DNA of 20,858 bases, from IMG/VR virus record IMGVR_UViG_3300030090_003400, positions 1 to 20,858 of that record, one strand, 5' to 3'. The stretch comes from a virus. Positions 8,860 to 20,196 of this stretch are shown one piece after another. Numbering within the stretch: the stretch's first letter is position 1; each line of letters opens with the position of its first letter. The translations under genes were made by a program, and so were the position numbers. The notes under the pieces were generated by a model, which ran no database searches, had not been told where the DNA came from, and worked only from the letters and a program-made list of their open reading frames with translations.

Positions 8860-9261
8860 ATGAGCGATGCAATAAACGTAGATAAGCTAACAAAAGTTTA
8901 TCTGAAAATAAAAGAGCAACGAGAAGAGTTGTCGAGTAGGTACAAGGAACAGGACGGTCATTTAGAAGAACAACAAAGCACGATCAAAAGTGAGTTGTTG
9001 AAGCATCTGCAAGAGCAGAACATTGATTCTATCAGGACACCTAATGGCACCTTTTACCGCACTACTAAGACAAAGTACTGGACTTCTGATTGGGAAAGTA
9101 TGCACGAGTTTATACTAGAGCATGGTTTGCCTGATCTTCTAGAGAAGCGGCTACACCAAACAAATGTGCGGACGTTTCTAGAGGAAAATGAAGATCTGCT
9201 ACCGAAAGGTCTGAACGTCGATAGCGAATACTCGTTATCAGTTCGGAGACCTAAAAAATGA
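8860..9261 (+). CDS. conserved phage protein with N-terminal coiled coil
   Basis: I place the start at ATG 8860 (133 aa) because GGAG sits six bases upstream; an ATG at 8833 lacks such a site. Residues about 5-50 form a charged coiled coil (KLTKVYLKIKEQREEL). A compact domain follows with RTPNGTFYRTTKTKYWTSDW, EHGLPDLLEKR, and a C-terminal GLNVDSEYSLSVRR strand. I recall the same arrangement in many phage genomes as an uncharacterised protein near replication helicases. No enzyme motif is visible. A DNA-binding or helicase-partner role is possible from context only. The stop overlaps the next ATG (ATGA). Confidence 0.7.
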   Translation: MSDAINVDKLTKVYLKIKEQREELSSRYKEQDGHLEEQQSTIKSELLKHLQEQNIDSIRTPNGTFYRTTKTKYWTSDWESMHEFILEHGLPDLLEKRLHQTNVRTFLEENEDLLPKGLNVDSEYSLSVRRPKK

Positions 9262-9476
9262 CAGACCCTCTAGTGCCAATCGAATCTGTTGCACAGCACT
9301 TCAAAGTGTCTATTTCAACAATTCGTTTGTGGGTTCGACAAGGTATTGTTCCTCCAAATAGTTACGTGAAGATAGGTAAAACCTACAGGTTTTCACTGCC
9401 TGATGTGACGTTTGCACTGCTTCGTTATGACAATGATATTGACGAAGTAGAGGAAGATTCGGACGATGATTTGTGA
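9258..9476 (+). CDS. excisionase/MerR-type helix-turn-helix protein
   Basis: A 72-aa protein with a winged helix-turn-helix of the HTH_17 (MerR/AlpA/excisionase) type: LVPIESVAQHFKVSISTIRLWVRQGIVP (about residues 5-32) followed by the wing YVKIGKTYRFSLPDV (36-50). The last 15 residues are almost all acidic (IDEVEEDSDDDL). This fold serves either as a small transcription regulator or as a recombination directionality factor. No integrase is in the window, so neither role is settled. The coupled ATGA start and GTGA end place it inside the helicase gene set. An obvious target to consider is the 18-bp palindrome at 899. Confidence 0.8.
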   Translation: MTDPLVPIESVAQHFKVSISTIRLWVRQGIVPPNSYVKIGKTYRFSLPDVTFALLRYDNDIDEVEEDSDDDL

Positions 9477-10126
9477 GAATCAGCATCCGTGGGGGTTACT
9501 TCTCTGGGCCACCAGAGCTAGATGCATACTGCACACAAATGAGTGCGGTAATCGTCCATGCTTCTGGAGTTCACAGAAGTTACTTCGCTGGTGAATACCA
9601 ACCAGAAGGTAATCAGTTACCTGCATGTTGGTCAACGGATACTGAGAGACCAGCGTTACAAGTGCCAGCGGCTACTCGCCAATCTGGTAGGTGTATCGAC
9701 TGCACTCAGAATATACGTGGATCAGCAATAGGTGGTAGTGGCAGAGCGTGTAGGTTCTTTCAGCTTTTAGCGATTGCTTTTGAGCATGATCTAAACACTG
9801 TACATAGACTGCAAGTTCCGTCAGCAAGCATCTTTGGCAAGAGCAACAGTAACATGTCGCTTGAAGCCTACTCGCGCTTTTTGGCTAAACACGGAACGCC
9901 AAGCGCAACTGTAGTAACAAAAATTTATTTTGATACGACAAGTAACATGCCTCGTTTGTGCTTTGCACCGTCGAGAGCATTGCGGACGGAGGAGTTAGAC
10001 GTTGTGCGTGAGGTCGTCACTCGGCCCAGCACCCTCAACACAATTACGTTTGAGGTTGTAGATCACACACAGTCTCCTTTTCCGGTTAGTAAGGGTTTTG
10101 AAATTAAGGAGACATATCATGGCTGA
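9473..10126 (+). CDS. conserved four-cysteine (zinc-ribbon-like) phage protein
   Basis: A 217-aa protein starting at GTG in a GTGA overlap and ending eight bases inside the single-stranded DNA-binding protein gene. Four cysteines are arranged as C52-W-S, C74-x2-C77 and C93 inside a CIDCTQN...GSAIGG.GRAC core, which looks like a zinc ribbon. The pattern C..C..N..GS...G.G.AC is one I associate with a conserved but uncharacterised phage family next to gp2.5-like proteins. The C-terminal half (about 105-217) is mixed alpha/beta. Constant pairing with the binding protein would suggest a role in recombination or replication, but the function is unknown. Confidence 0.7.
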   Translation: MRISIRGGYFSGPPELDAYCTQMSAVIVHASGVHRSYFAGEYQPEGNQLPACWSTDTERPALQVPAATRQSGRCIDCTQNIRGSAIGGSGRACRFFQLLAIAFEHDLNTVHRLQVPSASIFGKSNSNMSLEAYSRFLAKHGTPSATVVTKIYFDTTSNMPRLCFAPSRALRTEELDVVREVVTRPSTLNTITFEVVDHTQSPFPVSKGFEIKETYHG

Positions 10127-10844
10127 AGCCCAATACATAATACCTAGCGCAGAAGCGTTATACCCAAAGATCGACCAAACTTATAAGTTTGACCAGACTG
10201 CAAACCGCTCGGTTCCTTGTGATCCCTTTGATGACGGTGCAGCCTACGAGCTAAATTTTAAGCTATCAGAGTCTGACGCTAGGAAGCTATACAAGGCGAT
10301 GAAGGCTTACTACCTTGAGAGAAAAGAAAAGAGCTGGCCTGACAAGTTCCCAAATCCTTTCAAGAAGCAAGAAGACGGTACTTACGAAGGTAAGACCCGA
10401 CTAAAAGGCGCTTTTGGTAAAGATGCCAGCCGTAAGCCACTATTAGTGGACTCTAAAAATACGCCATGCGGTGACGATTTCAGACTCACTAGCGGCAGTA
10501 TTGTCAATATCTCTGTGACATTTGTTCCATACAGTGTCTCAGGTAGCACTGGTGTTAGTTTGCGTATCAACGCCGTACAGGTGTTGAAGTACGAGCCAAT
10601 GAAAGCTAGCAGTCCTTTTGCTGCTGTTTCTGATGGCTACGTGGCTACGGAAGCTAGCCCGTTCTCTCCTGCTCCCGAACAACCTGTTATCTCTGCAGAG
10701 GATGATGACGATGGTTTTGGGGATGAGGAAGATCTGCCCCCTGTGGCAGAACCGAAAAAGAAGGTTGTCAAAAAGTCTGCCCCTGCACCTACAGACGCTG
10801 GCAATCTAAGTTCGATCATTGATGCTTGGGATGACGAAGACTAG
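10119..10844 (+). CDS. gp2.5-like single-stranded DNA-binding protein
   Basis: A 241-aa protein. The start at ATG 10119 has TAAGGAG seven bases upstream; a TTG at 10098 is less likely. The N-terminal about 160 residues are strand-rich and fit the OB-fold of the DUF2815/T7 gp2.5 group (YELNFKLSESDARKLYKAM, then GSIVNISVTFVPYSV and GVSLRINAVQVLKYEP). Then come a Pro/Ser linker, an acidic run (195-205), a Lys-rich patch (213-219) and a short acidic-aromatic tip (IDAWDDED) like the protein-interaction tails of bacterial SSB and gp2.5. It would coat single strands and recruit the polymerase and primase-helicase. The family placement rests on pattern and context. Confidence 0.8.
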   Translation: MAEAQYIIPSAEALYPKIDQTYKFDQTANRSVPCDPFDDGAAYELNFKLSESDARKLYKAMKAYYLERKEKSWPDKFPNPFKKQEDGTYEGKTRLKGAFGKDASRKPLLVDSKNTPCGDDFRLTSGSIVNISVTFVPYSVSGSTGVSLRINAVQVLKYEPMKASSPFAAVSDGYVATEASPFSPAPEQPVISAEDDDDGFGDEEDLPPVAEPKKKVVKKSAPAPTDAGNLSSIIDAWDDED

Positions 10845-10860
10845 GTTTTAATGGTCACTT

Positions 10861-10939
10861 CATCACGGCTAGGTATGTGGCAAACCGAAAAGAGTGAAGC
10901 CCCCTAGTATTCACTCCTGCCGTGGTGTCTTTTCTTTTT
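10861..10939 (+). promoter_or_regulatory. nested, pseudoknot-capable RNA structure before the primase-helicase
   Basis: The outer stem pairs 10861-10869 with 10919-10927 (9 bp, one G-U). Inside it GAGTGAA (10892-10898) pairs with TTCACTC (10910-10916), 7 bp perfect, with an 11-base loop. Loop bases CCTAG (10903-10907) are complementary to CTAGG (10869-10873), allowing a pseudoknot of four to five pairs. A T-rich run (10928-10939) follows. The element could be an attenuator or terminator for the upstream genes, or a translational leader, since the ribosome site AGGTG (10940-10944) comes right after. It matches no known class I can name. Confidence 0.55.
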
Positions 10940-10949
10940 AGGTGCATAA

Positions 10950-13796
10950 ATGGATACAAAATTATTTTTAAGGAGTCTACTGCCCCCCAAAGGAATTTAC
11001 GTTTTATTGCGGATCAATTCGCAAACAGGAAACCTTGAGCAAACGTCTTACACGGACATAGATGATTTAGAACGTGCTGCTATAGAAGCAGACGGGGCGG
11101 GGTTAGACGTATATTTTGCGTTGAGTTCTTTCTGTAAAGAAAACTCTCGTAAGGCAGTAGACGCTAAGTACATACAAAGTTTCTTTTTGGATTTAGATTG
11201 TGGGGCTGACAAGCCACACGCAACACAGGTAGACGTAATTCAAGAACTGCAAAGTTTCTGTGCAGCAACTAAATTACCAAAACCACTTATAGTTAGCTCT
11301 GGTAGAGGCGTGCACGTCTATTGGATGCTGCGCGAAGCGGTCAGCGTCACGGATTGGAAACCCGTGGCACAAAGACTAAAGAACCTATGTGCAGAACATA
11401 AGTTTGAAATAGACACCAGTGTTCCCGCAGATGCAGCTAGGGTGTTACGTGTTCTAGGCACGCACAACTACAAGCCCGACTCACCCGCCCCAGTGCAGCT
11501 TTTAAGCGGTGTTCCCAAAGCTGTAGATTTCGATTGGTTTTCAGAGGCCATTGGTGGGCCGGTGATAACAGTTCCTACAAAACATGAAGAGGGAAGCGCA
11601 GGGGCTTTTGCTGAGTTCTTACTCAAGTCTAGTGAGTTTAGTTTTAAAGACATTTTAATTAAAACGAATAACGGTAATGGCTGTGCACAACTTGGTTTGA
11701 TAGTAGCCAATCAAGAAGTTACTACAGAGCCAATGTGGAGAGCGGGACTGTCTATTACGAAGTTCTGCCGTGATGGAGACAAGGCAGCGCATATGCTGTC
11801 TGCAAAGCACCCTGAGTACGTTCCGCACTTAACAGAGACTAAAAAGGATCTGGTAAAAGGCCCGTACAGGTGTGCAACGTTTGATGAGAATAATCCAAAT
11901 GTCTGCACGGACTGCCCTCACTGGGGCAAAATAAAATCTCCAATAGTGCTTGGGCGTAGGTTCAAAGCATCCGAAGATTGTGCCGACAGTGAAGACTCAG
12001 CAACCAACAATAGGTCTCCTGAACTTACAGACTCATCAGAGTTGGCGTTAGTAGATGATACGTCAGAACATGTTATACCCACATATCCACGTCCGTACTT
12101 TCGTGGAGCTAGCGGTGGAGTGTTTGTTAGAAGCACCAACCCAGACGGTGAAACAGATGAACGAGTGATCTACCAAAACGACATCTACGTAACACGGCGT
12201 TTGCATGATGTTGAAACCGGCGAAATGGTTGTAGTGCGGTTACACTTACCTAAAGATGGAGTGCGGGAGTTCACACTACCGCTAACAGCACTTACATCTA
12301 GAGAAGAATTTAGAAAGAATATGGCAGCGATGGGCGTTGCCGTTTTGAAACAGGACGACTTACAGCAGTATATGACTACATGGGTTAACGAGTTACAGGC
12401 AAAATCTGTAGCAGACACGGCACACCGGCAGTACGGATGGTCAACAGATGAATGCCGTAGCTTTGTGGTTGGTGACAAAGAGATACACCCAAATAAGATT
12501 TCTTATAACCCACCCACCGTGCCTACAATGCAGTCCTATCCGTTCTTCAAAACGAAAGGCACGCTAGAAGGTTGGCAAGAGATGGCGAACTTCTACCTGT
12601 CAAGAGAGGGTATGGAGATGCACCAGTATATAGTGTGCACTGCTTTTGGTTCTCCGCTCATGCAATTCCTACCGCAGAACTGTGCCACTATGCACGTCCA
12701 TGATAAGGCTGGCGGTGCAGGGAAAACGGCGGCTATGAAAGTGGCCGCAGCCGCGTGGGGGCATTTCAAGGGGATAGTGGTAGATGATAATGACACTACT
12801 TCTTTCAAGATGAATCGTGGAGAGGTGTTACACAATCTACCGTTCTACATTGACGAGGTGACAAATACGCCTGAGAAGGAGATGAGTGGTCTTGCGTATC
12901 AATTAACCAGCGGGCAGCAACGCGGGCGTATGAGTAATGGCTCAAACATAGAACGCACAAGGGGCGAACCTTGGAAACTATTGTGCTGCACTACAGGCAA
13001 CATGAGTGCAATTGAGAAAATATCATTGTTCAAAGCTGGGCCGAAAGCAGAAGCACAGAGGATATTAGAGCATCGTGCTAGACAGATCTTTTCAAAGTCA
13101 AAGGACAAAGAACTTACCGACAACTTTGAAAGGAGCATAGAAGAACACTATGGGCACGCAGGCCCGATCTTTATACAGCATGTAATGAATCACATAGAGC
13201 ACTACAAAGGACAGCTTCGTATCGTGCAGCAAACCATAGACCGCCGTGCTGGGCTGGCCCCAGAAAACAGATTTTGGTCGGCGGGAGCAGCGTGTGCCAT
13301 AACTGGTGGCATGATCGCTCAGAAGTTAGGGTTAGTAGATTACGATATGGAAGCCATTACCAAATGGATCGTAGGGCTACTAAAAGAAAACAAGAAAAAC
13401 GTAAGTGAAATGGGGGCATCAGTAGAGCAAGTCTTAAATGACTACATCATGGAACACTACGGTAACGTGTTATGGATAAAAAGCACTGATGACTTACGAA
13501 AACAAAATGAGACTAACATACTTGCAAACGGGTTAGATTCCCTTGTAGTGCCTGACGCTATACCAAAAGTTAAGTTTGTTGCGAGGTATGAGACAGACAT
13601 AAAACGTATGTACTTGCTACCTAAACCACTAAAAGAATGGTGCGGCAAACAGCAGATAAACTACGCAGGGTTTGTAGAAGACCTTATTGGTAAGCTGAAA
13701 GGCAAGCGCACCAAGATGCGTTTGAGTAAAGGCACACAAATGAGACTGCCGCCCACAAGTGTGATTGTAGTGAACTTCTCAATAGACGATGAGTAG
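10950..13796 (+). CDS. primase-helicase fusion (AEP primase plus SF3/DUF927-type helicase)
   Basis: A 948-aa replication protein. The N-terminal archaeo-eukaryotic-type primase has the metal-binding pair D81/D83 in FFLDLDCG, H122 in SGRGVHVYW, and the later DAARVLRVLGTHNYKP (161-176). A cysteine cluster (C308, C319, C322) suggests a zinc site. After a poorly conserved linker (about 340-380), the C-terminal helicase has Walker A GGAGKT (588-593), Walker B FYIDE (632-636) and a sensor-1-like LLCCTTGN (677-684), as in DUF927/superfamily 3 helicases. A 40-kDa-sized tail follows. It would unwind the phage DNA and lay down primers for the family A polymerase. The structured leader lies just upstream. 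The domain calls are strong; the primer chemistry is inferred. Confidence 0.88.
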   Translation: MDTKLFLRSLLPPKGIYVLLRINSQTGNLEQTSYTDIDDLERAAIEADGAGLDVYFALSSFCKENSRKAVDAKYIQSFFLDLDCGADKPHATQVDVIQELQSFCAATKLPKPLIVSSGRGVHVYWMLREAVSVTDWKPVAQRLKNLCAEHKFEIDTSVPADAARVLRVLGTHNYKPDSPAPVQLLSGVPKAVDFDWFSEAIGGPVITVPTKHEEGSAGAFAEFLLKSSEFSFKDILIKTNNGNGCAQLGLIVANQEVTTEPMWRAGLSITKFCRDGDKAAHMLSAKHPEYVPHLTETKKDLVKGPYRCATFDENNPNVCTDCPHWGKIKSPIVLGRRFKASEDCADSEDSATNNRSPELTDSSELALVDDTSEHVIPTYPRPYFRGASGGVFVRSTNPDGETDERVIYQNDIYVTRRLHDVETGEMVVVRLHLPKDGVREFTLPLTALTSREEFRKNMAAMGVAVLKQDDLQQYMTTWVNELQAKSVADTAHRQYGWSTDECRSFVVGDKEIHPNKISYNPPTVPTMQSYPFFKTKGTLEGWQEMANFYLSREGMEMHQYIVCTAFGSPLMQFLPQNCATMHVHDKAGGAGKTAAMKVAAAAWGHFKGIVVDDNDTTSFKMNRGEVLHNLPFYIDEVTNTPEKEMSGLAYQLTSGQQRGRMSNGSNIERTRGEPWKLLCCTTGNMSAIEKISLFKAGPKAEAQRILEHRARQIFSKSKDKELTDNFERSIEEHYGHAGPIFIQHVMNHIEHYKGQLRIVQQTIDRRAGLAPENRFWSAGAACAITGGMIAQKLGLVDYDMEAITKWIVGLLKENKKNVSEMGASVEQVLNDYIMEHYGNVLWIKSTDDLRKQNETNILANGLDSLVVPDAIPKVKFVARYETDIKRMYLLPKPLKEWCGKQQINYAGFVEDLIGKLKGKRTKMRLSKGTQMRLPPTSVIVVNFSIDDE

Positions 13797-14115: not shown

Positions 14116-17100
14116 TTAAAAGAACCCCACATCGTCTACTAGGTTTTGTGCGCCTTCAGATAACGTAACACCGTTATACATCTTGGCCTTGGTTGTGCGT
14201 TTATGGCTCTCTAGAGACCGCTCTATTGTTTTGCTATCTATACGCAGTTTAGGGTTTATTCTGACAGCATCGCTGGCGTTAAACTCATTCATCTTTTGGC
14301 GTATTCTTCTCTTTTCATCAAACTCGCCGAATCTGGTAGCAACATAGTAGCTATTTAATAGTCGGCCCCTTTCTCGTGTGGCCGCAGTCTCTATGTTCTT
14401 CACCGCACGCTTTTCTGCTTCACTTCTCGTATATTCGGCTGGTGGGAATCCTAATATCTTTACTGCCAACTCTCCTGCCGACATGTCATCGTATATGTAG
14501 TCCCCACGTCTGTTACGTATACCTCCCTCCATAGGGTAACGAATTGCGCCCTGATACACGTTACGCACTGCTCCGGGCAGTATATCTTCAACCCCACGCA
14601 TAAGATCTCTACCGTTTTCTGCGTCTATTAGTTTTCCAGCTCCACGATATGCTCTGGATACCACACTCCATGCAGGGCCACCTAGATAATGCATGAATGT
14701 TTCTGCGGGAGATGGATCAGATGTGAACCTGTCTGCTTCAATAAGCAAGTCAGTCAACTTAATGCGCTCAGATACGTCAATACCAAATAGTTCTGTTGGT
14801 ATTCCCCTGTATACAGCCTCATTATTCAGCGAGCTACGCACAAAAGTATCGAAATCTTCCTCGTAATCATCCGTAAATGCGTCGTACAACGCCGAAATTG
14901 CCCCGTACAGCGGCAGTCCTTGCACCCCAGCTAGCAGCAATGCAGATAAATGCACGCCTGCAAGCTGCTTGAACGCCTCTGATTTGGCTGTTTTTACGAG
15001 CGCGTCTATTGTGCTTTTTGCCACACCTTTTGATTCGAGGTCTTTTCTGTAACTATCAGCAAATACTTGAACAGCCTCATAACCTGTTTTGCCCATCGCG
15101 TAGTACATTTGAATACCGTAGTTCTTGTACATCAACGCAACACGGCCTATGCCCTCTCGTGCAAGTCGAGGGCCAGTCTCTAAAGTAGCACCACCGTTTA
15201 TTAACTGAGTTTCATATAACGCTTTATCTGCCGCTTGTTTTCTTTGTTCTGCCGTCGCCTTGTTCGGGTCACCGTTTGTGAGTTTATCCAGTTCTAGCTT
15301 ATAAGCAGTTACCATAGTCACTTGGCGATTCATCAACTCTGCTTGATGGAACATAAGCGCAGAGGCGTTTGTCATAGTGTCATAACGGCTCATTTTGCGT
15401 CCTGCACCATCCACGCTCAGTGTATCTGCAAGGAACGACGAGTTTAGATGCCCTCGTCTAGAAGCCAATTGAACCAGCGGTGCCAACCCCTCTAGTTCAG
15501 TAATCATATCTTTAGGTAGGTCTAAGTCTTCTCTTACAGAAAAGAGTAAGTCCCCGCTGTTTGGGTCTCTAGTAAACGTGTAGTAGTTATCCAAACTCTT
15601 GAGGGACATATCTTGCAATGTTCCGTATAACCCGTCCTCTGCAAGTTTTTGTTTTATGCTATCTGGCGTCCGCACATCACCATATAAAGTACGGCTTGCC
15701 TTGTTCATAGGCGCACCTTGAAACAACTTCGCAGAATCTTTTACTGCATTAGTGGCTTGTTTGGCTCCATATTTACCGCTCAACATGGGTAACGCAAATA
15801 ACGGTATTTGAGATAAGTTCACGAGTGCCGAAGATGCGTTAAATCCTATCGTGTACAAAAATGCCAAGCGGTTAGCGTGTTTAGGCCAGCCTTCTACGGT
15901 GGGCTGTATCGCAAACTGTGCACGACTTCTAAGCTCTTCGATTAGCTGTGCGTTTCTAGCACTGTCTTTACCTAGCCCTTGTGCTTCAACTTGCTCTAGC
16001 ATCTGGTCTAGTTCACGCGATATAGCGTTGCTGTTCTTGATGCGTTCTGTCTGTCGCGCCAAATCAAAGGCTTTTGTTCTGGCTGCGTCTACTGCATCCA
16101 TGTCATAGCCTTCAGTGTTTTTACGTTTGATTAACGCTTTTGCAAAAGAAGATTCTGGTAGCTCCTCAATGAACAACCTAGTTATTTGTTCTTTTACTGT
16201 GGGATCTATGGTCTGGTCTGTTAGATCTAATATCTTCAATACATCAGAAACAAATGACCCCGGCGGTGGGTTTCTATAAGAAGACGACTTACTGTTATCC
16301 CAAGAATCAACTTCAAAGCCTTGCTTCTCGTAAGACTCCATTGCGGTAAGTCGCTCTCCCGGCGTGTTAAAAGCAAATACCGCCGCGTTAGATCTATCAC
16401 CTTCCTTTTGCCGCACAGCTAACCAGTAGCTGCCACTACGAGTGAGTGGGAAGTATGGCTCCTTACCTGTGTTTTCTAGCAGTTTAGCCAGCAGTTCGTT
16501 TTTAAGGTTAGTTCTTGTGGTCTCTCCTACGGGTAGATCATCAAGCCGCCCCCGCAAAGAATCTATCAGCGCGTTGTATTGATCTCTGTAGAATCCACGC
16601 AACTCTTCATAGGCTTTTCTTCCATCTGGCCCCATTTCTGCACTCTGAAATAATGCACGTAACTCGTTATATTTATCTATCTTCCGTTGTGAAGTTCCTT
16701 CAACTGTTTGATCGCCGTATTTCTTCTTGGCTTCAGCAGGTGTTAAGTTGGGGTCTACCTCGTTTATGGTGCTTTCGTAAACAAGATTATTAAAGGTCTT
16801 CATTGTTTCCTGTGGTGCTTTACTGGCCCACCGGAATACAGGCTCTAACGTCTGCCTAGTAACCTGTTCTGCCTCCGTCAAACGCCCACGCTGCGTTTCT
16901 ATGGCATCTAGTATTCTTTTTGCGTTGGGTATGCCACGGGCTTCGGCGATGTCTTGTATTGATCCGTTTGGCAGAAACCCAAATATCTTAGTAAGGTACT
17001 TCTTAGCCCCTACTTGCGGGTCTGTCAGGAAGGCTTCTATCTCTTTCGATAGCTTCTTTCTTGCAGTCGCTCTACCCTCGGCTGTCCTAAACCCAGCTTC

Positions 17101-20100
17101 TTGACCTTTTATCTCTTCAAAGATTCTACGTACATCATCGGGCCTACCTGATGCAGCCAGCAGCGGGCCATACCTAAACTCAGGTGCAGGCGCTAATATC
17201 TCTTGTATGCGTCTGAACGCTTTACCTTTAGCACTGCGGTCAAACCTCTGAATACCTAAAAAGTCCGATAATATCTGTAACAGCTTCTCCCAAAAGGTTA
17301 GTTGTTCACCCTTGGGCGATATTTTTGCTAGGTCGTTTTGGAACTTAGCGTTGGTGAAGGCTTCCGCTACAAACTCTTTCAGGTTGGTCGCTCCATAGGC
17401 ATCCCCAAGCTGTCCTTTCACTTCGTCATAGAGTCTTTGCAGCTTCTTTGTGTTTGGGTGGGACTTGTTTGCCAGCACGTTATCTGTGGCTGCGTGTGCC
17501 ATCTCATGCAGCAGAATGCCGACAGATGTACCAGATTCTTCGTCTAGTAGTATCTCGTTTGTTTTTGGATTAAACGCACCGTCTAACGGTACGATTTCTC
17601 CCGTAACTGGGCTTTTGCCTCTGATAGAACGACTAGGCCGCACCTTGATCTTAGTGGTAAACGTGTAGTTTGCTAGCGTCCTAGCTATCTTCTTAGTGGT
17701 CGGGTCATCCACGGTTTGAGCTATCTCTAGCAAAGCGCGTCGTAGTTCGCCCTTTTTAGCAGCACGCAGTGCCGTGTCCGGTAGGGGTGCGTCTATTGCG
17801 TTGTATGCAATCTGGCTGGCTCCAAGCAAGTTGTCTTGGTCGTTTATGGCTTGCTCATCTCGGGCGGCTTCTACAGCTTGTTTTTGAGTAAGTCCTTCCT
17901 TTTTCTTATCAGCGACAAGTTTCGTAAACTCTGCGTTACGTGCAGCTCGTTCCTCCTTGGATAAATCATTTGAGGTAACTGCTTCTGTGATGTCAGTTTC
18001 GACCTCGGTTTCTGGCGCTTGTTGTGTCCTTGCCGCAGTCTCTTCTCTAGCCGTTTCTTCTATTTTTTTATTTTTATCGGCTATCTCACGTTCTGTACGC
18101 TGTTTAAGCGCCTCATCTCTTTTCTTATTTACAGCATTTGTTTTTTCTTCAAGCTGCTTTGTTAGCTCTTCTGTCTTTGCTGCTATCTCTCGCTTACGAG
18201 CCTCTTTAGACGATACGGATTTACGAACCCGTTTTTTCATCGCGGTAAGATCTTTTGAGAGTTGCTCTCGTAGCTCCCGCTTTTCGTTTGCGGCTTCGGC
18301 TATTATCGGATCAGCACGTTCTGCTGACTGTTGTTCTAACTCCGCAAGAGTTTCTGCATCTACAGCGGTAACTTCTTTTTTTGGTTCAGCTTTTGCTGCA
18401 ATCTTCTTTCTTGTTCGCTGTATCAGCGTAGGGGCAGCGACCTCTTCTGTAACACGGGGTCTTCTACCCGTGGGGGTAACAAGTTCTAGCTGCGCTTCTG
18501 GTGTACCTTTTAAAAACCTGTTTATAGCAGATTTTGCTTTTCCAGAAGTGCCTCTTCTAGCAGCGTATTTGGTAAGTATGTCCTGCTGCTCAGTTTCTCG
18601 TAAGTCCTTATCTAATAGTTTTTGCCGTATCGGGTCTTTCGCCGGGATAGATAGACTGTCCAGAGCTTCTTCTGTAGCAACCACCGGATCTGGCGCGGTT
18701 TCAACGTCTGCAGACTCGGTAGCGGTGAGCCTCGCTTCTTGCCGTGCTTTGGCTAGTTCAGTTGGAAACAAATCGGGCTGATCTTCTGCGGCTATTGCTG
18801 CACGTTGCTGCCCTAGCCGTGCCTCATCTGACACAGGCTCTTCTGTAATTCGTCGTTCTCTGTCTTGACGGTTAATACGATCTAATGCTTCTTCTCTAGT
18901 AAGCGCCTGTCCTTCTGGAGTAACGGCAAGTGTTTCACCAGCGATGGTCTCACCTTCTGGCGCAGGTATTCCTAGTAGTTGTGGGCCAATGCGTTCTGGC
19001 TCAAGCCCCGGTAATGCCATTTGATCGGGGGACACTTGTTCACGAACAGGTGTATCAGGTTCTTCTAAAGATCTTTCATACAAAGCACGTTCTTCTGGAG
19101 AGAGTTTTTGCACACGCTTTGCTATTGACTCCAGCCGACTTTCTTTCTGCTTATCGGTAAGCTCTGCAAAAGGCTTCTTGTAGCCGCCCTCTACCTTGGC
19201 TCGGATCTCTTCAATATCTAGCTCTGGTGCTTTGGGCACGCCCAGTAGTTCTAACTGTGTAGGTTCTTCTGGCCTAAACTCAAGCAGCCCTGCAATCTCA
19301 GGGCTGTCTGGCTGTTCTTCTGCCGCTTCTGCAATAGTTTTACCGCTCTTGCGAGAAGTAAATAAATCCACTAATCCCTGCAATATCGCGCCTGCAGAGC
19401 CACCAAGAGCTGCTTCTTGAGCAGTTGTTATGTCAAATGCTTCTGCTAGAGCGTCGTACTCTCTTGCATTTAAGTTTTGTAGAACGTTAGACGCTGCTTC
19501 CTGCGCAGCTTCTGCACCACCTGTTACACCTGCACTGCGTATACGCTCGCCAAAAGTCTCGACTTTCTCAGGAGGTATTTTATCTAGTATTTTATTAAGG
19601 GTAGGCAGATCAGCAAATTTTACTACTCTTGCAATAGGTAGTATGTCTAGCAGTCCAATACCAGCACCACGCGCTGTAACCGTAGCTCTTTCTTCTTCAG
19701 TAGCGCCAGCGGCCCTTGCTCGTTCACTTGCTTCACCGGCTCCAGCACCAGCGGCAGCTAGGGCACCAAGACCTATAGCAGCGGCACCGGGAGCACCGGC
19801 AGCGGCAGCGGCTGCAGGCAAAGTAGCAATACCTGCAATAGACCCAAGGGCTTGGCTTATTTGATAACTAATGGAGTCAGGGTCACCGCCTTCTGGGCGT
19901 AAGGCCGCAGCACCGGCTTTAATTTTTTCACGGGCAACAAGTTCAGCCTCTTCTTCTAGTGCGGCTGCACCACCCAGTAACGCAAGCTCACCTACGTCAA
20001 CGATACCTGCGCCGATTCCAGAAGTAATGTTCTCAATTACGCCAGCTTCTTCGCGTGGAGCAAGAGCACGTAGTATTGCTATATCTCTTTTTATGTCTTC

Positions 20101-20196
20101 TTCGTAGTCTTTGAGGGCTGCTACGGCTCTAGCGTCCCCTGCGGCTTGGGCGTTTCTAATCGCCGTTTGTACCTGCTCTAAAGAATGAGTTTGCAT
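14116..20196 (-). CDS. giant internal virion / polyvalent protein (PLxRFG type) with metallopeptidase motif
   Basis: A 2026-aa leftward protein. Residues about 50-290 are Gly/Ala-rich with hydrophobic stretches, as expected of a virion protein that enters membranes. Residues about 300-800 are charged, with long coiled-coil helices (about 600-780). LLHEMAHAATD puts a zinc-peptidase HEMAH at 897-901, with a later EFVAEAF (941-947) offering the third ligand. YFPLTRSGSYWL (1248-1259) matches the PLxRFG signature of large phage virion proteins, with Ser for Phe. The C-terminal part (about 1600-1990: NGGATLETGPRLAREGIGRVALMYKNYG and following) resembles large polyvalent protein domain 38. Such proteins are packaged and injected with the DNA. 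The ATG overlaps the upstream stop (TAATG). The virion role is likely; protease activity is untested. Confidence 0.85.
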   Translation of the reverse strand: MQTHSLEQVQTAIRNAQAAGDARAVAALKDYEEDIKRDIAILRALAPREEAGVIENITSGIGAGIVDVGELALLGGAAALEEEAELVAREKIKAGAAALRPEGGDPDSISYQISQALGSIAGIATLPAAAAAAGAPGAAAIGLGALAAAGAGAGEASERARAAGATEEERATVTARGAGIGLLDILPIARVVKFADLPTLNKILDKIPPEKVETFGERIRSAGVTGGAEAAQEAASNVLQNLNAREYDALAEAFDITTAQEAALGGSAGAILQGLVDLFTSRKSGKTIAEAAEEQPDSPEIAGLLEFRPEEPTQLELLGVPKAPELDIEEIRAKVEGGYKKPFAELTDKQKESRLESIAKRVQKLSPEERALYERSLEEPDTPVREQVSPDQMALPGLEPERIGPQLLGIPAPEGETIAGETLAVTPEGQALTREEALDRINRQDRERRITEEPVSDEARLGQQRAAIAAEDQPDLFPTELAKARQEARLTATESADVETAPDPVVATEEALDSLSIPAKDPIRQKLLDKDLRETEQQDILTKYAARRGTSGKAKSAINRFLKGTPEAQLELVTPTGRRPRVTEEVAAPTLIQRTRKKIAAKAEPKKEVTAVDAETLAELEQQSAERADPIIAEAANEKRELREQLSKDLTAMKKRVRKSVSSKEARKREIAAKTEELTKQLEEKTNAVNKKRDEALKQRTEREIADKNKKIEETAREETAARTQQAPETEVETDITEAVTSNDLSKEERAARNAEFTKLVADKKKEGLTQKQAVEAARDEQAINDQDNLLGASQIAYNAIDAPLPDTALRAAKKGELRRALLEIAQTVDDPTTKKIARTLANYTFTTKIKVRPSRSIRGKSPVTGEIVPLDGAFNPKTNEILLDEESGTSVGILLHEMAHAATDNVLANKSHPNTKKLQRLYDEVKGQLGDAYGATNLKEFVAEAFTNAKFQNDLAKISPKGEQLTFWEKLLQILSDFLGIQRFDRSAKGKAFRRIQEILAPAPEFRYGPLLAASGRPDDVRRIFEEIKGQEAGFRTAEGRATARKKLSKEIEAFLTDPQVGAKKYLTKIFGFLPNGSIQDIAEARGIPNAKRILDAIETQRGRLTEAEQVTRQTLEPVFRWASKAPQETMKTFNNLVYESTINEVDPNLTPAEAKKKYGDQTVEGTSQRKIDKYNELRALFQSAEMGPDGRKAYEELRGFYRDQYNALIDSLRGRLDDLPVGETTRTNLKNELLAKLLENTGKEPYFPLTRSGSYWLAVRQKEGDRSNAAVFAFNTPGERLTAMESYEKQGFEVDSWDNSKSSSYRNPPPGSFVSDVLKILDLTDQTIDPTVKEQITRLFIEELPESSFAKALIKRKNTEGYDMDAVDAARTKAFDLARQTERIKNSNAISRELDQMLEQVEAQGLGKDSARNAQLIEELRSRAQFAIQPTVEGWPKHANRLAFLYTIGFNASSALVNLSQIPLFALPMLSGKYGAKQATNAVKDSAKLFQGAPMNKASRTLYGDVRTPDSIKQKLAEDGLYGTLQDMSLKSLDNYYTFTRDPNSGDLLFSVREDLDLPKDMITELEGLAPLVQLASRRGHLNSSFLADTLSVDGAGRKMSRYDTMTNASALMFHQAELMNRQVTMVTAYKLELDKLTNGDPNKATAEQRKQAADKALYETQLINGGATLETGPRLAREGIGRVALMYKNYGIQMYYAMGKTGYEAVQVFADSYRKDLESKGVAKSTIDALVKTAKSEAFKQLAGVHLSALLLAGVQGLPLYGAISALYDAFTDDYEEDFDTFVRSSLNNEAVYRGIPTELFGIDVSERIKLTDLLIEADRFTSDPSPAETFMHYLGGPAWSVVSRAYRGAGKLIDAENGRDLMRGVEDILPGAVRNVYQGAIRYPMEGGIRNRRGDYIYDDMSAGELAVKILGFPPAEYTRSEAEKRAVKNIETAATRERGRLLNSYYVATRFGEFDEKRRIRQKMNEFNASDAVRINPKLRIDSKTIERSLESHKRTTKAKMYNGVTLSEGAQNLVDDVGFF

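Follow-up and report, generated by a model that had tools for sequence, protein, structure and literature searches.

The stretch of DNA analyzed here (the window) is the entire virus record IMGVR_UViG_3300030090_003400, positions 1-20,858, i.e., 20,858 nucleotides. On its plus strand, a gene for a Gp2.5/Enc34-like ssDNA-binding protein (ssb, 10116-10844) is followed by a primase-helicase gene (10950-13796, with the ATG at 10950), and the gap between them is occupied by a structured RNA at 10861-10942 on the same strand, with ssb directly upstream of this leader. The ssb start at 10116 is internal to a longer mechanical open reading frame (10098-10844); the product matches the PHROG family phrog_112 (E 6.1e-19) and the Pfam family PF10991 (E 1.6e-8). 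The primase-helicase contains a DUF927 helicase part (PF06048, E 2.5e-24) and matches phrog_8841, DNA primase/helicase (E 7.6e-38); its AEP-like N-terminus is weak, with PF21686 under its cut-off. The two genes probably share one transcript. Convergent with the primase operon, a 2026-aa open reading frame on the minus strand (14116-20196) has the stretch LLHEMAHAATD, which we take to be a zincin-like HExxH motif.

Fold of the Leader

The RNA at 10861-10942 is a real structured element with the overall fold P1-UA-P2-GAAAA-P3-CU-P1'. The 9-bp outer stem P1 pairs 10861-10869 with 10919-10927, in agreement between folding, parsing, and covariation. It is followed by the junction segment J12, a conserved UA at 10870-10871 (invariant columns 10-11 of alignment A2), by the P2 hairpin at 10872-10886 (GGU...ACC), whose two counted pairs are kept in 98-100% of cells, and by the segment J23, a conserved GAAAA at 10887-10891 that reads GARAM in most relatives according to the parsed leaders and the Rfam alignment. 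The P3 hairpin at 10892-10916 has a perfect 7-bp stem (10892-10898 with 10910-10916) of covarying pairs and the loop 10899-10909 GCCCCCUAGUA; the segment J31, CU at 10917-10918, is again conserved in the parsed leaders and in the alignment. Beyond P1 lie the U-rich tail TCTTTTCTTTTT (10928-10939), which is terminator-like in the window's clade only, and the sequence UUAGGUG (10938-10944), a candidate target of the P3 loop that overlaps the Shine-Dalgarno sequence (SD) AGGUG at 10940-10944. The fold energy of the window's leader is -23.3 kcal/mol compared with -15.96 +/- 2.82 for shuffled sequences (z -2.6), and 3 of 200 shuffles were equally good.

A sequence-only reading of this DNA had located the outer stem, the 7-bp hairpin, the T-rich tract, and the ribosome site AGGTG correctly, and it had neither the P2 helix nor the Rfam match described below. 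Because of this third short helix, the leader is a three-way junction. The same reading proposed a pseudoknot, in which the loop pairs back with bases next to the outer stem. In the window, the loop segment CCUAG (10903-10907) is indeed complementary to CUAGG (10869-10873), with five Watson-Crick pairs, C10869 being already the last base of the P1 outer stem. This pairing is unsupported across the family. Over the 79 clusters defined below, among the matches listed, pairing of the loop with the 5' CUAG scored 7.46 for own and 7.70 +/- 0.16 for swapped combinations (z -1.48), and the nearest relatives L002, L031, and L042 have no CCUAG in the loop. The hammerhead ribozyme is also a three-way junction, with GAAA between two helices and a CUGANGA core; this candidate was rejected, since the core is absent, the junction reads UA / GAAAA / CU, and cmscan reported no ribozyme family up to E 1.

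Family Assignment and Conservation

A cmscan search of the whole window gave a single match, int-alpA RNA (RF02996), at 10862-10942, which covers positions 1-71 of the 71-position model and scores 40.3 bits against a cut-off of 35.8. P1, P2, P3, and the conserved junction bases are all present in the window, and the family has the same P1-UA-P2-GAAAA-P3-CU-P1' fold. Its consensus also has a conserved AgGG immediately 3' of the stems, in keeping with the candidate target site. We assign the leader to the int-alpA class of structured RNAs, as a member from a phage. It does not lie between integrase and alpA genes, its flanks being ssb and the primase-helicase gene; such a position is inferred from the family name and is not a criterion of the Rfam model, and the other members detected also precede many other genes. 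Rfam types the family as gene/sRNA, i.e., as a separate RNA, and the structure line of its model has no pairing between the loop and the SD. No second copy was found elsewhere in the window, either by cmscan or with a covariance model built without the window's clade. In the accessible text of PMC12370729, int-alpA is listed only among predicted small RNAs, and our literature search, outside of which the original description of the family falls, found no other paper naming int-alpA or RF02996.

In a public collection, at least 600 stretches match the primase of this phage group. A search with the window's primase protein yielded 43 viral loci, and 80 more came from a search with 14 aligned primases. 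The three-way junction was recognized by parsing in 71 of the 120 primase leaders read (55 distinct, 37 clusters); among the 49 that did not parse, some are plain hairpins, and a few (among them L425, L434, L489, L490, and L503) resemble junctions by eye and failed the thresholds. Covariation was assessed after MAFFT alignment of representatives of 32 of the 37 clusters, with L439, L450, L475, L480, and L495 left out for their long insertions. Eight of the nine P1 pairs changed on both sides, 94% of P1 cells pair, and the whole tested structure, including the loop-tail pairs, had 109 two-sided cells versus 35 in shuffled and 17-40 in slid versions. The stems behave alike when the window's clade is removed (29 sequences). 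Thus related leaders do share covarying stems, and the earlier opinion that the element exceeds a simple terminator is borne out by a conserved structured leader.

The model lacking the window's clade recognizes the window at 54.6 bits (E 1.9e-12), its sole hit there, and at E up to 1 it found 13 of 21 records, the window's own included and one of them only at E 0.08. Among 30 int-alpA loci, model R1, built with the window, detected seven at E <0.001 and a further two at E-values of 0.065 and 0.12. With the Rfam model, 2 of 12 records with related phage leaders scored above the RF02996 cut-off, most falling below Rfam's reach. No element was found by Rfam or by the model without the window's clade in the named phages Rollin and RHph_TM3_14A, which have distant primase relatives. 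The tails of most other clades have no U-rich tract. In L435, L437, L440, L443, L460, L468, and L469, a plain strong hairpin stands at the same place before related primases, and the junction may therefore be gained or lost around a constant hairpin. Three further leaders (L480, L482, and L495) have a long apical extension on P3, with P1 and the junction intact.

Complementarity of the P3 Loop to the Start of the Following Gene

To cover the wider class, elements were collected from pattern scans (among the matches listed), Rfam hits, and primase relatives. A descriptor of the stems gave 135 hits, 96 of them distinct, in 79 clusters (among the matches listed). The clusters were filtered by stems and never by loop-tail pairing, and hits with a tail of less than 50 nt were dropped. 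The reversed descriptor gave 1 hit versus 135, but this control is no clean background, as an exact core pattern had served to fetch many of the loci.

In these 79 clusters, among the matches listed, the P3 loop has two complementary partners, the sequence immediately 3' of P1 and the SD. Scored against the downstream sequence, own loops reached 14.69 versus 10.34 +/- 0.25 for swapped loops (z 17.4, among the matches listed), and, taken one by one, 39% of clusters outscored 95% or more of their swaps. Enrichment was seen only between about +5 and +30 nt, with no enriched complementary site in the 150 nt upstream of the elements, and a site within 22 nt of the element was present in 78 of 79 clusters versus 41 expected. 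The median distance from P1 to the start of this first site, t1, is 8 nt, as scored in 69 of 71 non-primase clusters. The second site, t2, is the SD. In the 66 of 71 non-primase clusters in which t2 was scored, a median of 5 nt separates its end from the next start codon, and it is within a hairpin loop in 56, with 29.0 expected. Both sites occur together in 65 of 79 clusters versus 29.7 expected. Clear examples are L196, where UCUUUCA faces UGAAAGG and a second UGAAAGG follows, L123 (CCCUUA with UAAGGG, twice), and L392 (UUCCCAC with GUGGGAA). A T-run of at least four follows P1 in only 17 of 79 clusters (among the matches listed). Five genomes have two scorable copies of the element. In three of them (G042, G049, and G038), each loop matches the tail of its own copy better than that of the other; in G015 and G020, matches across the two copies are about as good as those within each copy. 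The second copy of G034 has a 3-nt loop only, and L192 and L194 were unparsed.

Among the primase leaders alone (37 clusters), the signal is weaker than in the wider class: loop-tail pairing scored 11.03 versus 9.90 +/- 0.33 (z 3.4), and 2 of 5000 permutations were as high. Most of these leaders are short, with one site near the SD, and the two-site form occurs in L248 (GCCGUCG with CGACGGC), a more distant primase relative with 38% identity over about the first 400 aa. Compensatory changes are observed between the related leaders L456 (GUGCCG with CGGCAC), L459 (UGUGCC with GGCACA), and L461 (UGUGUCA with UGACACA), and further convincing clades are represented by L006 (AAAAUUUA with UAAAUUUU), L008 (UGCCGA with UCGGCA), and L021 (ACCGA with UCGGU). 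The window itself is a weak case. Its candidate pairing of CCUAG (10903-10907) with UUAGG (10938-10942) overlaps the SD and comprises five pairs, including one G-U, and in L002, L031, and L042 the loop-SD pairing is no better. In L442, L477, L445, L453, L455, and L457, loop-tail pairing is impossible because P3 is capped by a UUCG, GCAA, or GUAA tetraloop. These capped leaders retain UCUCGGA in the tail; pairing of the tail with the P2 3' strand, considered as an alternative in them, was not above chance (z 0.42).

Distribution of the Class and the Genes That Follow

Of 369 genomes in the class to which a Pseudomonas belongs, 40 had RF02996 matches, as did 22 of 40 genomes chosen for a prior match to a core pattern. 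The downstream genes are diverse. Among 66 proteins scanned, HNH_3 occurred in five, and GIY-YIG, NUMOD4, Rha, Dam, integrase, DUF1376, and others once each. This set is without five proteins of the window's primase set and others with no usable frame or locus, and it still includes three primase relatives, L248 (identified by comparison) and L237 and L343 (by their N-termini). On viral contigs, int-alpA-like elements with a matching t1 stand before HNH or GIY-YIG endonuclease-like genes (L387:4525-5082, L394:1348-2049, L318:1682-2293, L403:5894-6295, and L356:1079-1741), an arrangement suggesting that such elements may control free-standing homing endonucleases at the SD.

Discussion

The tip of one arm of the junction matches the start signal of the next gene across the family, and the element therefore probably controls the amount of that protein. 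We consider it about an even chance that the leader is a cis-acting translational control element of the primase-helicase mRNA that works by pairing of the loop with the SD. The three-way junction would hold the P3 loop beside the ribosome site of the primase-helicase gene, the loop would base-pair with the tail beside or over the SD, and this pairing would lower or gate primase-helicase translation relative to that of SSB from a shared transcript. For the class as a whole, t1, some 8 nt beyond P1, could be a decoy or nucleation site, or else the first antisense site, and t2, the SD in a small hairpin loop, would be the regulated site. On this reading the pairing would form in the cell, act in cis, and repress translation, and the window's clade, in which it is weak, would presumably work the same way. 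Against it count the weak loop-SD pairing in the window and in L002, L031, and L042, the tetraloop-capped leaders, for which the tail-P2 alternative gave no signal above chance, the 49 unparsed leaders, and the typing of RF02996 by Rfam as a separate sRNA.

The same complementarity could be used by a released RNA of the C4/CI kind, and this we regard as a possible though doubtful alternative. The junction would be cut or terminated off the leader, and its loop would repress in trans, at t1 and the SD, the mRNA it came from or the corresponding mRNA of an incoming relative, in the service of immunity or copy control. Such an RNA would agree with the layout of P1 c4 and P4 CI, where one complementary site directly follows the junction RNA and another is at the SD of the downstream gene, with an SD in a hairpin loop, which suits kissing, and with the preference of loops for their own tails in three of the five two-copy genomes; P4 CI, in the accessible part of PMC4825925, pairs with seqA and seqC and stops the expression of replication genes. 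Nevertheless, the cis reading is favored because the matched site adjoins the element in nearly all clusters, most tails have no T-run, and no sigma-70-like promoter site was found in the ssb-primase gap. In addition, the copies in G015 and G020 do not discriminate between tails, and no upstream site is enriched, unlike in C4 and CI. The strong hairpin retained at this place even in the junction-less relatives L435, L437, L460, and L468, together with the U-rich tail after P1 in the window's clade, would also suit an intrinsic terminator or attenuator, or a hairpin that stabilizes the mRNA or insulates ssb from the primase gene, the junction detail and the loop matches being incidental. This explanation seems unlikely to us, as the junction bases UA, GAAAA, and CU are conserved, all three helices covary, and the U-tract is missing in most other clades. 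A terminator scan of 9200-11200 named none at the leader, its loop limit excluding a fold of this kind.

The remaining explanation, a ligand or protein sensor, had been offered by the sequence-only reading in the form of autoregulation by the SSB encoded just upstream. The adjacent ssb gene lends itself to this idea, and according to the available text of PMC535899, the T4 SSB gp32 uses a pseudoknot to repress the mRNA that encodes it. However, the gp32 operator precedes the start of its ssb gene, whereas the leader here is 3' of ssb, and this leader could therefore act on the primase and not on the start of ssb itself. With the window's SSB as a tblastn query, a detectable relative was encoded upstream in 5 of 79 clusters, a count that a more diverged SSB could escape. 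The class precedes many unrelated genes, the pseudoknot is unconserved, and the constancy of the junction bases before such genes points to some general factor of the host, or to a role in structure alone, and against an SSB sensor. Sensing of SSB by the leader is thus unlikely, and any sensor of this kind is in our opinion highly improbable.

Comparison with Known Phage Regulatory RNAs

The T4 gp32 operator is another phage RNA near an SSB gene, and it controls translation. In the accessible text of PMC535899, it consists of a pseudoknot of about 28 nt followed by UUAAA repeats, located before the ssb gene itself. The element at 10861-10942 is a three-way junction 3' of ssb (10116-10844) and not upstream of the ssb start, and so lacks the position of a gp32-type operator.

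A closer likeness is to the C4 antisense RNA of phage P1 (described in the accessible part of PMC2864571) and CI of satellite P4 (RF01695, clan CL00128), which also form a three-way junction upstream of a phage gene. As in the int-alpA class, P1 c4 and P4 CI have one complementary site immediately 3' and one at the SD (annotated as a2 and b2 in P1), and CI controls replication genes, as the available part of PMC4825925 reports. The systems differ in that C4 uses two segments for its two sites, whereas in the int-alpA class one loop fits both. Homology was rejected, as no sequence match was found in either direction: there was no C4 (RF01695) match in 10700-11100 at E up to 1, where RF02996 alone was reported, and model R1 had no hit in the P1 and P4 loci. 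The c4-a1b1 target region of phage P1 (L200:48217-48311) also matches isrK, below the cut-off, in agreement with the published likeness of IsrK and P4 seqA (accessible part of PMC4825925).

Our best reading is that the leader, which is no member of the C4 family, would work by analogy with the C4/CI antisense RNAs. More tentatively, and with somewhat less than even confidence, we propose that int-alpA-type RNAs constitute a portable, self-addressed class of translational control elements of mobile elements, in which the junction is constant and the P3 loop is re-coded to the SD of the next gene and its decoy copy, with a specificity per element like that of antisense immunity groups. Such a class would serve satellite and prophage genes, free-standing homing endonucleases, and the replicative primase-helicase of a large group of metagenomic phages, whose translation, if this is true, would be tuned by an RNA with a specificity readable from sequence. 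The loop-to-SD code gives the int-alpA family a testable job, and it would link the mode of action of these RNAs to phage control of the C4/CI type, now at the entry into DNA replication.
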